Shown here in pieces: positions 30,421 to 37,116 of a stretch of DNA of 64,000 nt. Numbering within the stretch: the stretch's first letter is position 1; the number at the start of each line of letters is the position of its first letter. Under the pieces are notes generated by a model. The model did no database searches. It saw only the letters and a program-made list of their open reading frames with translations, and was not told the DNA's origin. The translations under genes and the position numbers were made by a program. The stretch is from Lachnospiraceae bacterium (GTDB lineage: Bacteria > Bacillota > Clostridia > Lachnospirales > Lachnospiraceae), in NCBI GenBank assembly GCA_024696005.1, contig JAILHF010000011.1, forward strand, positions 62,001 through 126,000, given 5' to 3'.

Positions 30421-30449
30421 TTGTCTTTTTACAAAAGCGGTCTTATAAT
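30421..30449 (+). promoter_or_regulatory. Promoter of the ATP synthase operon
   Basis: TTGTCT (30421-30426), 17-base spacer, perfect TATAAT (30444-30449), 30 bases before the atpB start. Confidence 0.65.
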
Positions 30450-30478: not shown

Positions 30479-31363
30479 GTGACAAAAAAACGTAAGATCC
30501 GCATCCTCGTGATCTCTTTGATCGTCCTGGGATTGATCGTGGCCGGAGTGATCCTTACCCCCGCCCCCGAAAAGCACGAGACCATCAAGGAAGCCATGAA
30601 GGACGCGGTGCTGCATAATGAGAATCAGATCGCATTTCTGGGCTTTGAGGTGGATCCTTCCCTGGTGAGCGGCTATATCGTGACAGGGATCCTGCTTTTG
30701 TTTGCCCTGATCCTGCGGATCTTTGTGATCCCTCATTTCCGGATGATACCCGGGAAATTCCAGCTCGTGATCGAGACCTGGGTCGGCTTTTTCGACGACC
30801 TTGCGAAGGGAAATTCCCCGCACAGGAACAAGGCTCTGGGAGGCTATCTCTTCGGAGCCGGTTCCTATATCTTTGTCGGGACCATGTTTGAGCTGTTTGG
30901 CGTGCAGGCCGTGACCACTGCGGGGCATTCCGTATCCCTGCCGGCGCCGCTGGCCAACATCAACGGGGCCATGTGCATGGGCCTGCTTTCGTATCTGTTT
31001 ATCATGTCCGGAGGGATCGCCGGCAACAAGCTGGGCGGCATCGGCAAGACGCTGAAGGAATTCTCCCTCCCGATCTCCATGACATTCCGACTTTTCGGTG
31101 CACTGCTCTCCGGCATGCTGACGACGGAGCTGGTGTATTACTATATCACCCTCAGTTTCGGACTGCCCGTGGTCGTGGGCGTGCTCTTCACGGTGCTGCA
31201 TGCCCTGATCCAGGCCTACGTGCTCACGATGCTCACAAGCTTCTACTATGGGGAAGTGAGCGAGGTGCATCCGAAGAAGAGCAAAGAGGAACGCGCAGCC
31301 GAAAAGGCGGCAAAGAAAGCTGCAAAAGAAGCGGAGAAAGCGGCAAAAGCCGCCGGATCATAA
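30479..31363 (+). CDS. atpB: ATP synthase F0 subunit a
   Basis: A 294-residue membrane subunit forming the ion half-channels next to the c ring. The essential arginine is present in the fourth-helix motif FRLFGALLSGMLTTEL, equivalent to E. coli Arg210 in LRLFGNMYAGEL, and the following helix has the usual Q (HALIQAYVLTML). The start is GTG with AAAGGAG eight bases upstream. An unusual Lys/Ala/Glu-rich tail of ~35 residues (KKSKEERAAEKAA...) extends into the cytosol. First gene of the operon B-E-F-A-G-D-C. Confidence 0.95.
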   Translation: MTKKRKIRILVISLIVLGLIVAGVILTPAPEKHETIKEAMKDAVLHNENQIAFLGFEVDPSLVSGYIVTGILLLFALILRIFVIPHFRMIPGKFQLVIETWVGFFDDLAKGNSPHRNKALGGYLFGAGSYIFVGTMFELFGVQAVTTAGHSVSLPAPLANINGAMCMGLLSYLFIMSGGIAGNKLGGIGKTLKEFSLPISMTFRLFGALLSGMLTTELVYYYITLSFGLPVVVGVLFTVLHALIQAYVLTMLTSFYYGEVSEVHPKKSKEERAAEKAAKKAAKEAEKAAKAAGS

Positions 31364-31386
31364 GGAAAAGACGGAGGAAAACGAAG

Positions 31387-31785
31387 ATGAAGAAACTGAA
31401 GAGCTTATCCATCGTACTGGCGGCCCTGATCCTGGTCATGGGAACCATTACCGCGGCGGAAGCCATCAAAGCGAAGGCAGCGGATGCATCCGCACCGGTT
31501 GCGATGCAGGCGCCGGAAGCGCCGGAAGGGGCAGAAGCTGTGGCAGCCGCAGGGGATACGACCACCGGCACCAAGGCCATCGCGGCAGCCATCGCGATCG
31601 GACTGGCAGCGATCGGCGGAACCTTCTCGATGGGCATGTCCATCGCGAAGTCCAACGAAGGCGTGGCGAGACAGCCGGAAGCGGCAGGCAAGATCCAGAC
31701 GCAGCTTATGCTGGGCCTGGTGTTCATCGAGACCGTCGTGATCTATGCCCTGATCGTGGCGATCCTGATCGTATTCGTATTGTAA
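31387..31785 (+). CDS. atpE: ATP synthase F0 subunit c with long N-terminal extension
   Basis: A 132-residue protein, against 70-90 usual for subunit c. The last ~75 residues are the normal hairpin: first helix IAAAIAIGLAAIGGTFSMGMS, polar loop with the conserved ARQPEA, second helix with the ion-carrying Glu in LVFIETVVIYALIV. By hand alignment the position of the Na+-binding Gln32 of Ilyobacter is Met here, which favours H+ coupling. The first ~55 residues are a signal-peptide-like helix (LSIVLAALILVMGTITAAEA) and an Ala/Pro/Glu-rich linker. The ATG is set by GGAGGAAAACGAAG. Longer frames upstream are shadows of atpB. Confidence 0.92.
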   Translation: MKKLKSLSIVLAALILVMGTITAAEAIKAKAADASAPVAMQAPEAPEGAEAVAAAGDTTTGTKAIAAAIAIGLAAIGGTFSMGMSIAKSNEGVARQPEAAGKIQTQLMLGLVFIETVVIYALIVAILIVFVL

Positions 31786-31803
31786 TCAGACGGAGGAGAC
31801 AAA

Positions 31804-32310
31804 ATGCTCTTAGCAACGGATTTGCCTCTTGGCATCGATTTTGTACAGGTCCTGCTGCATCTCTTTAATGTGGTGATCCTTTTTGCGGGATTGTATGTGC
31901 TCCTTTATGCCCCGGTAAAGGCCTTCATGGACAAGAGGCAGGAGTACTTCCGCTCGCTGCAGGAAGAGGCGGAAAAAGCAAAGCAGGAAGCGGAAGAACA
32001 GAAGGCTGCATGCGAGAAAAAATTCCGGGAAGCGGAAGACGAGATCAACGCAAACAGAAAAGCAGCCGAGAAGGAGCTTGAGGAGATCAGAAAGCAGACC
32101 AGGGACGCCGCAAAGGCGGAGGCCAGGGAGCTGCTGGAAGAGACGCGCCGTCAGGCCGAGCGGGAGCGCAGGGCCATCATCGGCGGTGCCAGGGAGGACA
32201 TCTCCCGCATGATCGAAGACGCGGCGCGCAAGATCATGCAGGGGGAAGACGCGGGAGATCCCTACGAGGAATTCCTGAAAGACGTGGAGAGGAATCAGCA
32301 CAATGGCTGA
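31804..32310 (+). CDS. atpF: ATP synthase F0 subunit b
   Basis: A 168-residue peripheral-stalk subunit: one N-terminal membrane helix (VLLHLFNVVILFAGLYVLLYAPV) and a long charged coiled coil rich in Glu, Lys and Arg. Length is ordinary, and no delta-like domain is fused at its C-terminus. The stop lies eight bases inside atpA. In normal operons atpH would come between these two genes; here there is no room for it. Confidence 0.93.
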   Translation: MLLATDLPLGIDFVQVLLHLFNVVILFAGLYVLLYAPVKAFMDKRQEYFRSLQEEAEKAKQEAEEQKAACEKKFREAEDEINANRKAAEKELEEIRKQTRDAAKAEARELLEETRRQAERERRAIIGGAREDISRMIEDAARKIMQGEDAGDPYEEFLKDVERNQHNG

Positions 32311-34032
32311 GAAAAAGCCTGAAAAAGCATATCTTTATGCGGCGAAAAAGCCGAATGTCGTACAGCAGAAGCGCCTGGAAGATTTCCTGAAGGAGCATTA
32401 CGGAAGGGAATATGAACTGGTCTGGCGTGAAGAGGAGGAAGCCGGAGCGGGTTTCCGTCTGGTGGTCGGAGACGATGTCTATGACCGCACGAAGGAAGGG
32501 CGCTTCCACCAGCTGCAGGAACGCCTGGAGCAGCTCAGGCAGCAGGAAGCGGAAGCATCCGACCTGATCACGCTCTTTAAGAGCAGCATCGACAGCTGGA
32601 ACGTGGAGGCTTCGGCCAGTGAGGAAGGTACCGTGCTCACGGTCGGAGACGGGATCGTGGTCGTGGAGGGCCTTTCGAGGGCCGTTTACGGCGAGATCCT
32701 TGTTTTTGAGAGCGGTGTCAAGGGAATGGTCCAGGATATCCGGCGGGATTCCCTGGGCGTCATTCTTTTCGGCAGCGATGACGGCGTGCTGGAAGGCAGC
32801 CGTGTCCGCCGCAGCCACAAGACCGCAGGCATCCCTGTGGGAGAGGCGTATCTGGGGCGTGTCGTGAATGCCCTGGGAGAGCCGGTCGACGGCGGCGGAG
32901 CGATTCCCGCGGACGGATACCGGCCCGTGGAATCACCGGCGCCGGGCATCATCGAGCGGCAGGCGGTGGATACGCCCATGTATACCGGCATCCTTACCAT
33001 CGATTCGATGTTCCCGATCGGCCGCGGACAGCGTGAGCTGATCATCGGCGACCGTCAGACCGGAAAGACCGCCATCGCGACCGATGCGATCCTGAACCAG
33101 GACGACGTGATCTGCATCTATGTGGCGATCGGCCAGAAGGCCAGCAGTGTGGCCAGACTGGTGGGAAGCCTGAAGAAAAAAGGAGCGATGAAGCATACCA
33201 TCGTCGTGAGCGCCACGGCGAGCGACACAGCTCCGATCCAGTATATCGCGCCATACGCGGGCACCGCGCTGGCGGAGTATTTCATGCACAAGGGCAGGGA
33301 TGTCCTGATCATCTATGACGATCTGAGCAAACATGCCATCGCGTACCGTGCACTCTCGCTTTTGCTGGAGCGGTCCCCGGGACGTGAGGCTTATCCCGGC
33401 GACGTGTTTTACCTGCATTCCCGTCTTTTGGAGCGCTCGGCCCATCTTTCGGACGAGCTGGGAGGCGGAAGCATCACGGCGCTGCCCATCGTCGAGACCC
33501 AGGCCGGTGATGTTTCGGCCTATATCCCGACCAATATCATATCGATCACCGACGGACAGATCTTCCTGGAGAGCGATCTCTTCTTCTCGGGACAGAGACC
33601 GGCCGTGAACGTGGGCCTTTCCGTATCCCGTGTGGGCGGAGCCGCGCAGACGAAAGCCATGAAAAAGGCGGCGGGCACGATACGTCTGGATCTGGCGCAG
33701 TACCGCGAGATGGAGATCTTTACCCAGTTTTCCAGCGATCTGGATGAAACAACGAGACGGCAGCTGCAGTACGGCGAGGGCCTGATGCAGATCCTGCGGC
33801 AGCCCCAGGGCAGCCCTTACAAGCTTCACGAGATGGTCATCCTTCTGCTCGCGGCTACGGGGCATGTGATGCAGGAACTGGAGATCGAGCAGATCCGCCC
33901 GTTTTCGGAAGATCTTCTGCGCTTTTTCTCGGCCATGCATTCCGCGCTCTGCCGAGAGATCGATGAAACGGGGAAGCTCAGTGACGAGCAGAAAGAAGAG
34001 ATCCGCAGCCTTTCGGAGGAATATCTGGATAA

Positions 34033-34054
<22 letters not shown>
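32303..34054 (+). CDS. atpA: ATP synthase F1 subunit alpha with N-terminal delta-like domain
   Basis: A 583-residue alpha subunit, about 75-80 longer than usual. From residue ~85 it is a standard alpha: beta-barrel ([16 protein letters not shown]), Walker [12 protein letters not shown] near 249, conserved [17 protein letters not shown] near the end. Residues ~1-80 do not belong to alpha. They follow the C-terminal domain of subunit delta: [22 protein letters not shown], then [29 protein letters not shown], matching the E. coli delta pattern G-x5-AGDMVIDGSVRGRLERL. The operon lacks atpH. Thus the b-binding part of delta may be carried by alpha itself. It overlaps atpF by 8 and atpG by 22 bases. 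Confidence 0.93.
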
Positions 34055-36796
<2,742 letters not shown>

Positions 36797-36799
<3 letters not shown>

Positions 36800-37088: not shown

Positions 37089-37116
37089 GGGCGGGGCATA
37101 CCTGCCCTTTTTCTTT
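37089..37116 (+). terminator. Rho-independent terminator
   Basis: GGGCGGG (37089-37095) pairs with CCTGCCC (37101-37107) through one G-T pair, 5-base loop, followed by TTTTTCTTT. It would separate the small gene from the flippase gene. Confidence 0.65.

Follow-up and report, generated by a model that had tools for sequence, protein, structure and literature searches.

Based on profile searches, structure prediction and a survey of related genomes, the ATP synthase α subunit encoded in the window, the whole 64,000-nucleotide stretch of Lachnospiraceae DNA that was analysed, was found to carry the C-terminal domain of subunit δ in front of its α sequence. The fusion is encoded in an intact operon, a second F-ATPase operon is present in the same genome, and a separate δ is dispensable in related genomes. 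It is proposed, with a probability of about 0.6 for the explanation as a whole, that the window enzyme is a multi-stalk fused F-ATPase.

The fused α subunit and its operon

The operon (30479-36799) holds a complete second F-ATPase set in the order a-c-b-α-γ-β-ε, and all seven genes, which lie on the plus strand, are full-length open frames. Subunit a of Fo is encoded by atpB (30479-31363, listed GTG start), an open frame with a homologues at the same place in related operons, and subunit c of Fo by atpE (31387-31785), which lies within a 297-codon open frame and the start codon of which was picked by eye. The stalk subunit b of Fo is encoded by atpF (31804-32310; Pfam ATP-synt_B, E 9.5e-15), the fused α by atpA (32303-34054), and subunits γ, β and ε by atpG (34033-34953), atpD (34968-36386) and atpC (36383-36799), each an open frame with corresponding homologues in related operons. 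A sigma-70-like promoter may be placed directly 5' of the operon at 30421-30449 (+; consensus match 10/12), for which the three sites in the region against 2.6 expected by chance constitute weak evidence, and a terminator-like hairpin was located 3' of the operon at 37089-37107 (+) by a consensus scan. At its N-terminus, the atpE product is extended by about 55 signal-like residues; among 57 related fused operons, the c frame comprises 117-159 codons in 19 and at most 99 codons in 38. The P-loops, the α arginine in SVSRVGG, the a-subunit arginine in FRLFG and the c-subunit glutamate are all present in the translations.

As to class, the seven-gene set of the F-type (F1Fo) enzymes is present, with the δ C-terminal domain located in α in place of a separate δ in the operon. 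Assignment to the N-type (alternate) F-ATPases was rejected, since the alternate-α model TIGR03324 scored 575.9 bits, below its cut-off of 750.5, and the standard model TIGR00962 scored 721.9 bits. The gene order B-E-F-A-G-D-C, the overlap of eight bases between atpF and atpA (32303-32310) and the lack of atpH in the operon, all given in a preliminary description made from the DNA letters, agree with the open frames and the sequence; no atpH was detected inside 30479-36799.

AtpA consists of 583 amino acids, and the TIGR00962 match covers residues 85-577, leaving about 84 extra residues at the N-terminus. On the whole protein, the OSCP family profile PF00213 matched residues 6-75 (32318-32527, +) through profile positions 102-172 with 23.5 bits, just over the cut-off of 22.3, and on residues 1-90 alone with 27.4 bits (E 4.2e-6); this profile span comprises the C-terminal δ domain only. 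The δ domain is followed by the α N-terminal helix region and the linker to the α β-barrel (residues 84-105; 32552-32617, +), where phmmer alignments to α chains start and the model confidence falls to a pLDDT of about 41. A family profile, designated A1, was assembled from the relatives of about 85 residues found in other genomes (46 of 57 stretches aligned). Against the PDB it matched 21 sequences at E ≤0.01, every one of them a δ, OSCP, b-δ or engineered δ-α chain, with E. coli δ as the best match, and the HMMER alignment of this profile with chain 5t4o_L reproduced the alignment to E. coli δ (AGDMVIDGSVRGRLERL) that had been drawn by hand. Furthermore, HHalign aligned the extension to the C-terminal part of 19 separate δ subunits of related genomes (99.7%, E 3.9e-27).

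The fold of the extension leads to the same identification. The predicted model of AtpA residues 1-98 (mean pLDDT 75.1) shows the order strand-helix-strand-strand-strand-helix, and a Foldseek comparison with the PDB gave 848 matches at E ≤10, six of them at E ≤0.001 and the best at 1.5e-4. Ranks 1-43 were ATP synthase δ/OSCP, b-δ or engineered-fusion chains (in a few cases identified by chain letter alone), with TM-scores normalized by query length of up to 0.63, and rank 44 was a chain of the FliH-FliI complex. The AlphaFold model of the whole AtpA was weak in the α core (mean pLDDT 68.2). A chance Pfam match was ruled out by the agreement of the profile, HHalign, PDB and fold searches, and a frameshift or annotation artefact by the recurrence of the fusion across many genomes, including, for the full-length type described below, those of cultured isolates. 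Residues 6-75 of AtpA are thus almost certainly the δ (OSCP) C-terminal domain fused in front of α. The N-terminal domain of δ has no counterpart at the locus, where atpF is of ordinary length and ends eight bases inside atpA, and its absence, for which the covalent linkage is plausibly a substitute, had been recognized in the preliminary description together with the δ-like pattern of the first 80 or so residues.

The second operon and the spread of fused α subunits

The window genome (completeness 99.94%) contains a second complete F-ATPase operon on another contig (C57, locus L005), with a canonical α and a full-length δ (171.9 bits). The preliminary description had named two observations that together would speak against a δ domain in AtpA: a separate full-length atpH, which does exist in this C57 operon, and a lack of δ similarity in AtpA residues 1-80, where such similarity was in fact found. 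The profile search and the genome survey that it proposed, together with a fold prediction of the domain, agree with the δ C-domain reading. Over the eight columns compared, numbered on a reference sequence, the c subunit of the window reads GMVFETVY, without the glutamine of the Na+ site, vs PQAVETTY, of Na+ type, in the C57 operon. A rnfC gene is also present in the window genome.

A comparable pair of operons occurs in Pseudobutyrivibrio ruminis, in the membranes of which both Na+-dependent and H+-dependent ATP synthase activities were reported (PMC11026938, after Schoelmerich et al. 2020). In P. ruminis DSM 9787, the c subunit is of H+ type in the fused operon (L138, full-length type) and of Na+ type in the canonical one (L225); because both activities were reported and the two types of c are divided in this way, the active H+-dependent enzyme is probably the fused one. 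The operon pair of the window genome is probably the same as that of P. ruminis, in which the fusion is of the full-length grade. Complete F-ATPase subunit sets were described for 62 of 62 rumen butyrivibrio genomes, fusions being unmentioned in the part of that report considered here (PMC4478896). One further genome (G141) contains three α genes (L067, L101 and L219), of which one is canonical with a separate δ, one divergent with a separate δ and one a δ C-domain fusion.

With AtpA residues 1-90 as the query, matches at E ≤0.01 were obtained in 96 of 299 Lachnospiraceae genomes, and inspection of the open frames and operons established a fused α for no fewer than 58 of all 299 genomes, that of the window among them; this count is a lower bound, as one genome of the same family (G207) was missed by the residue query and picked up by the profile. 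In 54 of the 57 related fused operons, all six other subunits are encoded by separate frames, the exceptions being L056 (b in the α frame), L087 (a past the contig end) and L089 (β split across two frames), and phmmer found a separate δ in 0/57. Sixty genomes were searched for α and δ, namely the 58 with a fused α, one with an operon that contains a separate δ (G149, L099) and one in which the operon is cut by a contig end (G147). In 22 of these 60, the sole α found (E up to 1e-120) is fused and no other OSCP match exceeds the cut-off (in G236, another match of 16 bits lies below it); 15 of the 22 have the δ C-domain only, six a full-length δ and one a doubtful b-δ-α frame. Twelve of the 15 C-domain-only genomes without another δ are at least 90% complete, although draft assemblies might still conceal a gene. 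The fused α very probably replaces the separate δ, and a need of the fused enzyme for the canonical δ was ruled out by the 22 genomes without another δ over the cut-off.

Beyond the family, a class-wide draw of 341 genomes gave frames of at least 500 codons with the domain; by a hand count among the matches listed, these belong to 44 or more genomes, which fall under 18 family codes. Twenty of these loci, covering all 18 family codes, were examined, and the extension lies on α in 20/20; in five of them at least one other subunit was not found, partly through contig ends. In a phylum-wide draw of 249 genomes, frames of more than 600 codons occurred in seven genomes that belong to three out-of-class families and, apart from these, only in G000, G180 and G207. 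All seven out-of-class loci (L238-L244) are C-domain-only fusions, and no separate δ was found within the stretches around them; in three of the seven genomes, all of family f130, the δ domain is matched a second time at another place. Side-by-side δ C-domain matches were also encountered, in one 270-codon frame (G546:C84:41085-41528) and in separate frames (G669:C7:41140-41951 and G749:C30:51643-52440), which may represent tandem δ genes or domains.

The extension before α is mostly either about 100-130 residues long, corresponding to the C-domain only, or about 200 residues long, corresponding to the whole δ, with four loci in between. Among 80 named loci, the full-length type accounts for 66 and the C-domain-only type for 14, and the latter are metagenome-assembled or uncultured records in all 14 cases. 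Fifteen of the 80 whose names denote isolates were searched, and each combines a full-length fusion with a separate δ; these include P. ruminis DSM 9787, P. xylanivorans DSM 14809, Eubacterium uniforme ATCC 35992 and Agathobacter ruminis JK623. Several loci are irregular in other respects. The 787-codon frame at L056:4656-5564 (G068) encodes subunit b, the δ C-domain and α, with an out-of-frame ATG at the usual α start; a one-base sequencing error would account for this apparent triple fusion with equal likelihood, a single genome of the genus was compared, and the locus was kept out of the evidence. PF00213 alignments that cross stop codons into the b gene (G062 and G137) were regarded as spurious on inspection. 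In E. uniforme (L100/L164), the fused α frame has 758 codons, about 80 more than its relatives, with the surplus at the C-terminal end; in L182, a repeat of about 21 residues is present in three nearly identical copies in the extension ahead of the δ C-domain; and in L191, the γ frame was not found and the β frame has 802 codons, for which a joining of γ and β or a sequencing error may be responsible.

The history of these fusions was examined in a tree of the α core, from which the fused part was excluded (99 rows, 477 columns). The tree does not contain L222 (the L056 locus), L220 (the L052 locus), L217 (partial) or L086 (at a contig end); the loci with intermediate extensions (L182, L189, L191 and L195) were treated in it as a separate class and were pooled with the C-domain-only rows for the clade test; and L082, L047 and L189 have long branches and an unsure placement. 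The doubtful L056 is among the 21 of 99 rows labelled as full. On this tree, 18 changes are needed for the C-domain-only state (at least five forced by strong branches), 11 for full fusions (at least four) and six for the separate δ (at least three). A single clade of all C-domain-only rows was rejected (AU p 7.6e-7), and a single clade of all fused rows was rejected less strongly (AU p 0.0039), p-values that are to be taken with care because both tests followed inspection of the tree. Many of its forks are weakly supported. The window clusters with C-domain-only rows of several families (32 rows, SH-aLRT 83, in the first tree; 33 rows, SH-aLRT 95, in the larger one), and the out-of-class fusions L238-L244 lie nearer to canonical α subunits, parted from the window clade by strongly supported branches. 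Judged from these α sequences, the window fusion is probably independent in origin from at least L238-L244. Because the one-clade trees are rejected and the out-of-class fusions sit apart, repeated fusion and repeated loss of the δ N-domain appear to be the most likely course of events.

Number of stalks

In the proposed mechanism, δ would have been cut down to its b-binding C-terminal domain and joined to the N-terminus of α. Ueno et al. 2025 (PMC12229609) argue that the δ N-terminal domain, by its position on the threefold axis of F1, restricts the number of stalks to one. Because α is present in three copies and this limiting domain is missing, each α may offer its own dock for a b2 stalk, giving three docks per F1. 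An assembly in which peripheral stalks and a subunits each number more than one (two or three) would then probably be formed, as in the engineered δΔN-α enzyme of Bacillus PS3, and the additional stalks would raise the H+/ATP ratio, so that ATP might be made at a low proton-motive force in a division of labour with the canonical Na+-type F-ATPase of the same cell.

The engineered enzyme provides the physical precedent. When the δ N-domain of Bacillus PS3 was deleted and the δ C-domain was fused to α, up to three stalks were bound; relative to the wild type, subunit a was increased 2.2-fold and subunit b 1.8-fold, the H+/ATP ratio was 5.8 vs 3.0, and ATP was synthesized at an unusually low driving force (PMC12229609). 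The stoichiometric puzzle raised in the preliminary description, three copies of the domain against one δ per enzyme, thereby receives an answer. On the other hand, cryo-EM particles with 0, 1, 2 and 3 stalks made up 15, 51, 26 and 8%, and ATP-driven pumping was below that of the wild type (PMC12229609); both the predominance of one-stalk particles and the reduced pumping count against the multi-stalk reading. Furthermore, a multi-stalk assembly does not follow automatically from fusion, because three full-length δ N-domains, as in the full-length δ-α relatives, presumably do not fit on one axis. The separate δ of the window genome could in principle also interact with the fused enzyme.

In the best-placed alternative, the fusion is real and replaces δ, yet a single stalk is formed, one C-domain binding b2 and the other two being empty or blocked, so that only gene saving and a fixed subunit supply are gained. 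It is regarded as a possible outcome, though a rather doubtful one. The full-length δ-α fusions, expected to retain the asymmetric seat of a single δ N-domain, are in keeping with it, as is the fact that half of the engineered particles were one-stalked. In addition, a single a subunit has been present in all ATP synthases so far according to Ueno et al. 2025 (PMC12229609), a statement against which, taken as a strict rule, the entries for Chloroflexus aurantiacus count. The six PDB entries of this enzyme (9itj, 9itk, 9itl, 9its, 9itt and 9itu) contain 12 δ and 18 α chains, that is, two δ per three α, and because of this a strict rule of one a subunit and one stalk is doubtful. A 2025 paper reportedly describes paired stalks, along with two a subunits, in this ATP synthase. 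Against a single stalk stand the repeated loss of the δ N-domain, the named stalk limiter, in the fused lineages and the behaviour of the engineered fusion, which, unadapted as it was, bound about two stalks on average as judged by SDS-PAGE and the H+/ATP ratio.

A mixed α pool is an improbable alternative. Proteolysis or an internal start would provide one fused and two plain α subunits per F1, by which the usual 1:3 ratio would be restored, and the low model confidence between the δ domain and α (residues 82-104) would permit cleavage. In 100 of 158 fused loci, the interdomain stretch does contain a start codon (ATG in 56), mostly one that lacks a ribosome site, an observation that also tells somewhat against the multi-stalk reading; the 158 loci contain some genomes twice (e.g. 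L058 and L102). However, a start codon in the right place after a Shine-Dalgarno match of at least four bases was found in only 14 of the 158 and after one of at least five bases in one, vs 18 of 21 unfused α subunits that have at least five bases, and the interdomain stretch of the window contains zero start codons at the internal-start position. From these sequences, the production of plain α through an internal start appears unlikely. A reading of the operon as a copy that is redundant or in decay, with the fusion as an accident of that decay, is hardly credible, even with a second canonical operon in the genome and a β in two frames in one of the 57 related fused operons (L089), given that the seven window genes are open over their full length, that at least 58 of 299 family genomes have a fused α, which is the sole F-type α found in 22 of 60, and that Na+- and H+-dependent activities were reported for P. 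ruminis (PMC11026938), the fused operon of which has an H+-type c.

Returning to the multi-stalk reading, the presence of more than one stalk in the window enzyme is assessed as moderately probable. How small a gradient can still drive ATP synthesis is determined by the H+/ATP ratio, and the size of the c-ring is the textbook source of variation in this ratio among species. Should the fused enzymes contain several stalks and a subunits, a further means of varying it, shown to be physically possible by the engineered enzyme, would have been used many times in fermenting Clostridia. With a ten-c ring and three a subunits, 30 H+ would be translocated per three ATP, and about 50 mV would pay for ATP at 50 kJ/mol (assumed values). 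Cultured species with the fusion are at hand, such as P. ruminis DSM 9787 with its full-length type, in addition to genomes in which the fused α is the only F-type α found. In annotation, searches for a separate atpH will misread fused operons as incomplete.

Comparison with known systems

The preliminary description knew of no α-δ fusion of this kind, but Ueno et al. 2025 (PMC12229609) both built one and name natural cases. Natural δ-α fusions without the δ N-domain are given there for Acidaminococcus fermentans and for the UniProt entries G4Q3K6 and A0A1I2C5T3, and a multi-stalk structure in A. fermentans was deemed highly likely by the same authors (PMC12229609). Compared by description, AtpA of the window agrees with their account of a natural fusion, in which δ is placed on the N-terminus of α and its N-domain is missing. 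The engineered δΔN-α enzyme of PS3 (PDB 9jc1) likewise has the δ C-domain on the α N-terminus and no δ N-domain, and the two proteins are collinear over 555 window residues, residues 8-562 of the window α aligning with 5-562 of chain 9jc1_I in a single stretch (587 bits). The PS3 enzyme is laboratory-made and has its ε C-domain removed, whereas the window enzyme is natural.

Other known systems share only parts of the arrangement. The F1Fo of C. aurantiacus resembles the proposed window enzyme in having more than one δ per F1, and differs from it in that its δ, of 157 amino acids, is separate; this δ matches the δ profile only from position 61. In mycobacterial b-δ, which was matched by the same profile (7jg5_d), the δ domain is also fused to a stator subunit, the partner being b and not α. 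The Clostridia operons in PMC5709465 have the same gene set and order as the window, read from the opposite end, without δ; they were reported as chimeric units, and a δ domain inside α is unmentioned in the part of that paper considered here. The N-type (alternate) F-ATPases are similar in forming a second F-type operon per genome, and their gene order is unlike that of the window.

In searches of the open-licence literature, no paper on natural α-δ fusions was listed besides that of Ueno et al. 2025. The present analysis adds the wide occurrence of the fusions within Clostridia, Lachnospiraceae included, the full-length type, the recurrent loss of the N-domain, the apparent dependence of some genomes on the fused enzyme only, and its co-occurrence with Na+-type enzymes. 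More broadly, and more tentatively, with chances put at slightly under even, δ-α fusion and shedding of the δ N-domain may repeatedly have given rise, within Bacillota, to ATP synthases that bear two or three stalks together with several a subunits. Such enzymes would have H+/ATP ratios of about 6-10 and would serve fermenting anaerobes as low-gradient, H+-driven enzymes beside or instead of the one-stalk Na+-type enzyme. If this is true, they would represent a second, convergent natural route to multiple stalks, unlike the unfused two-δ arrangement of Chloroflexus, and the first with threefold symmetric docking.
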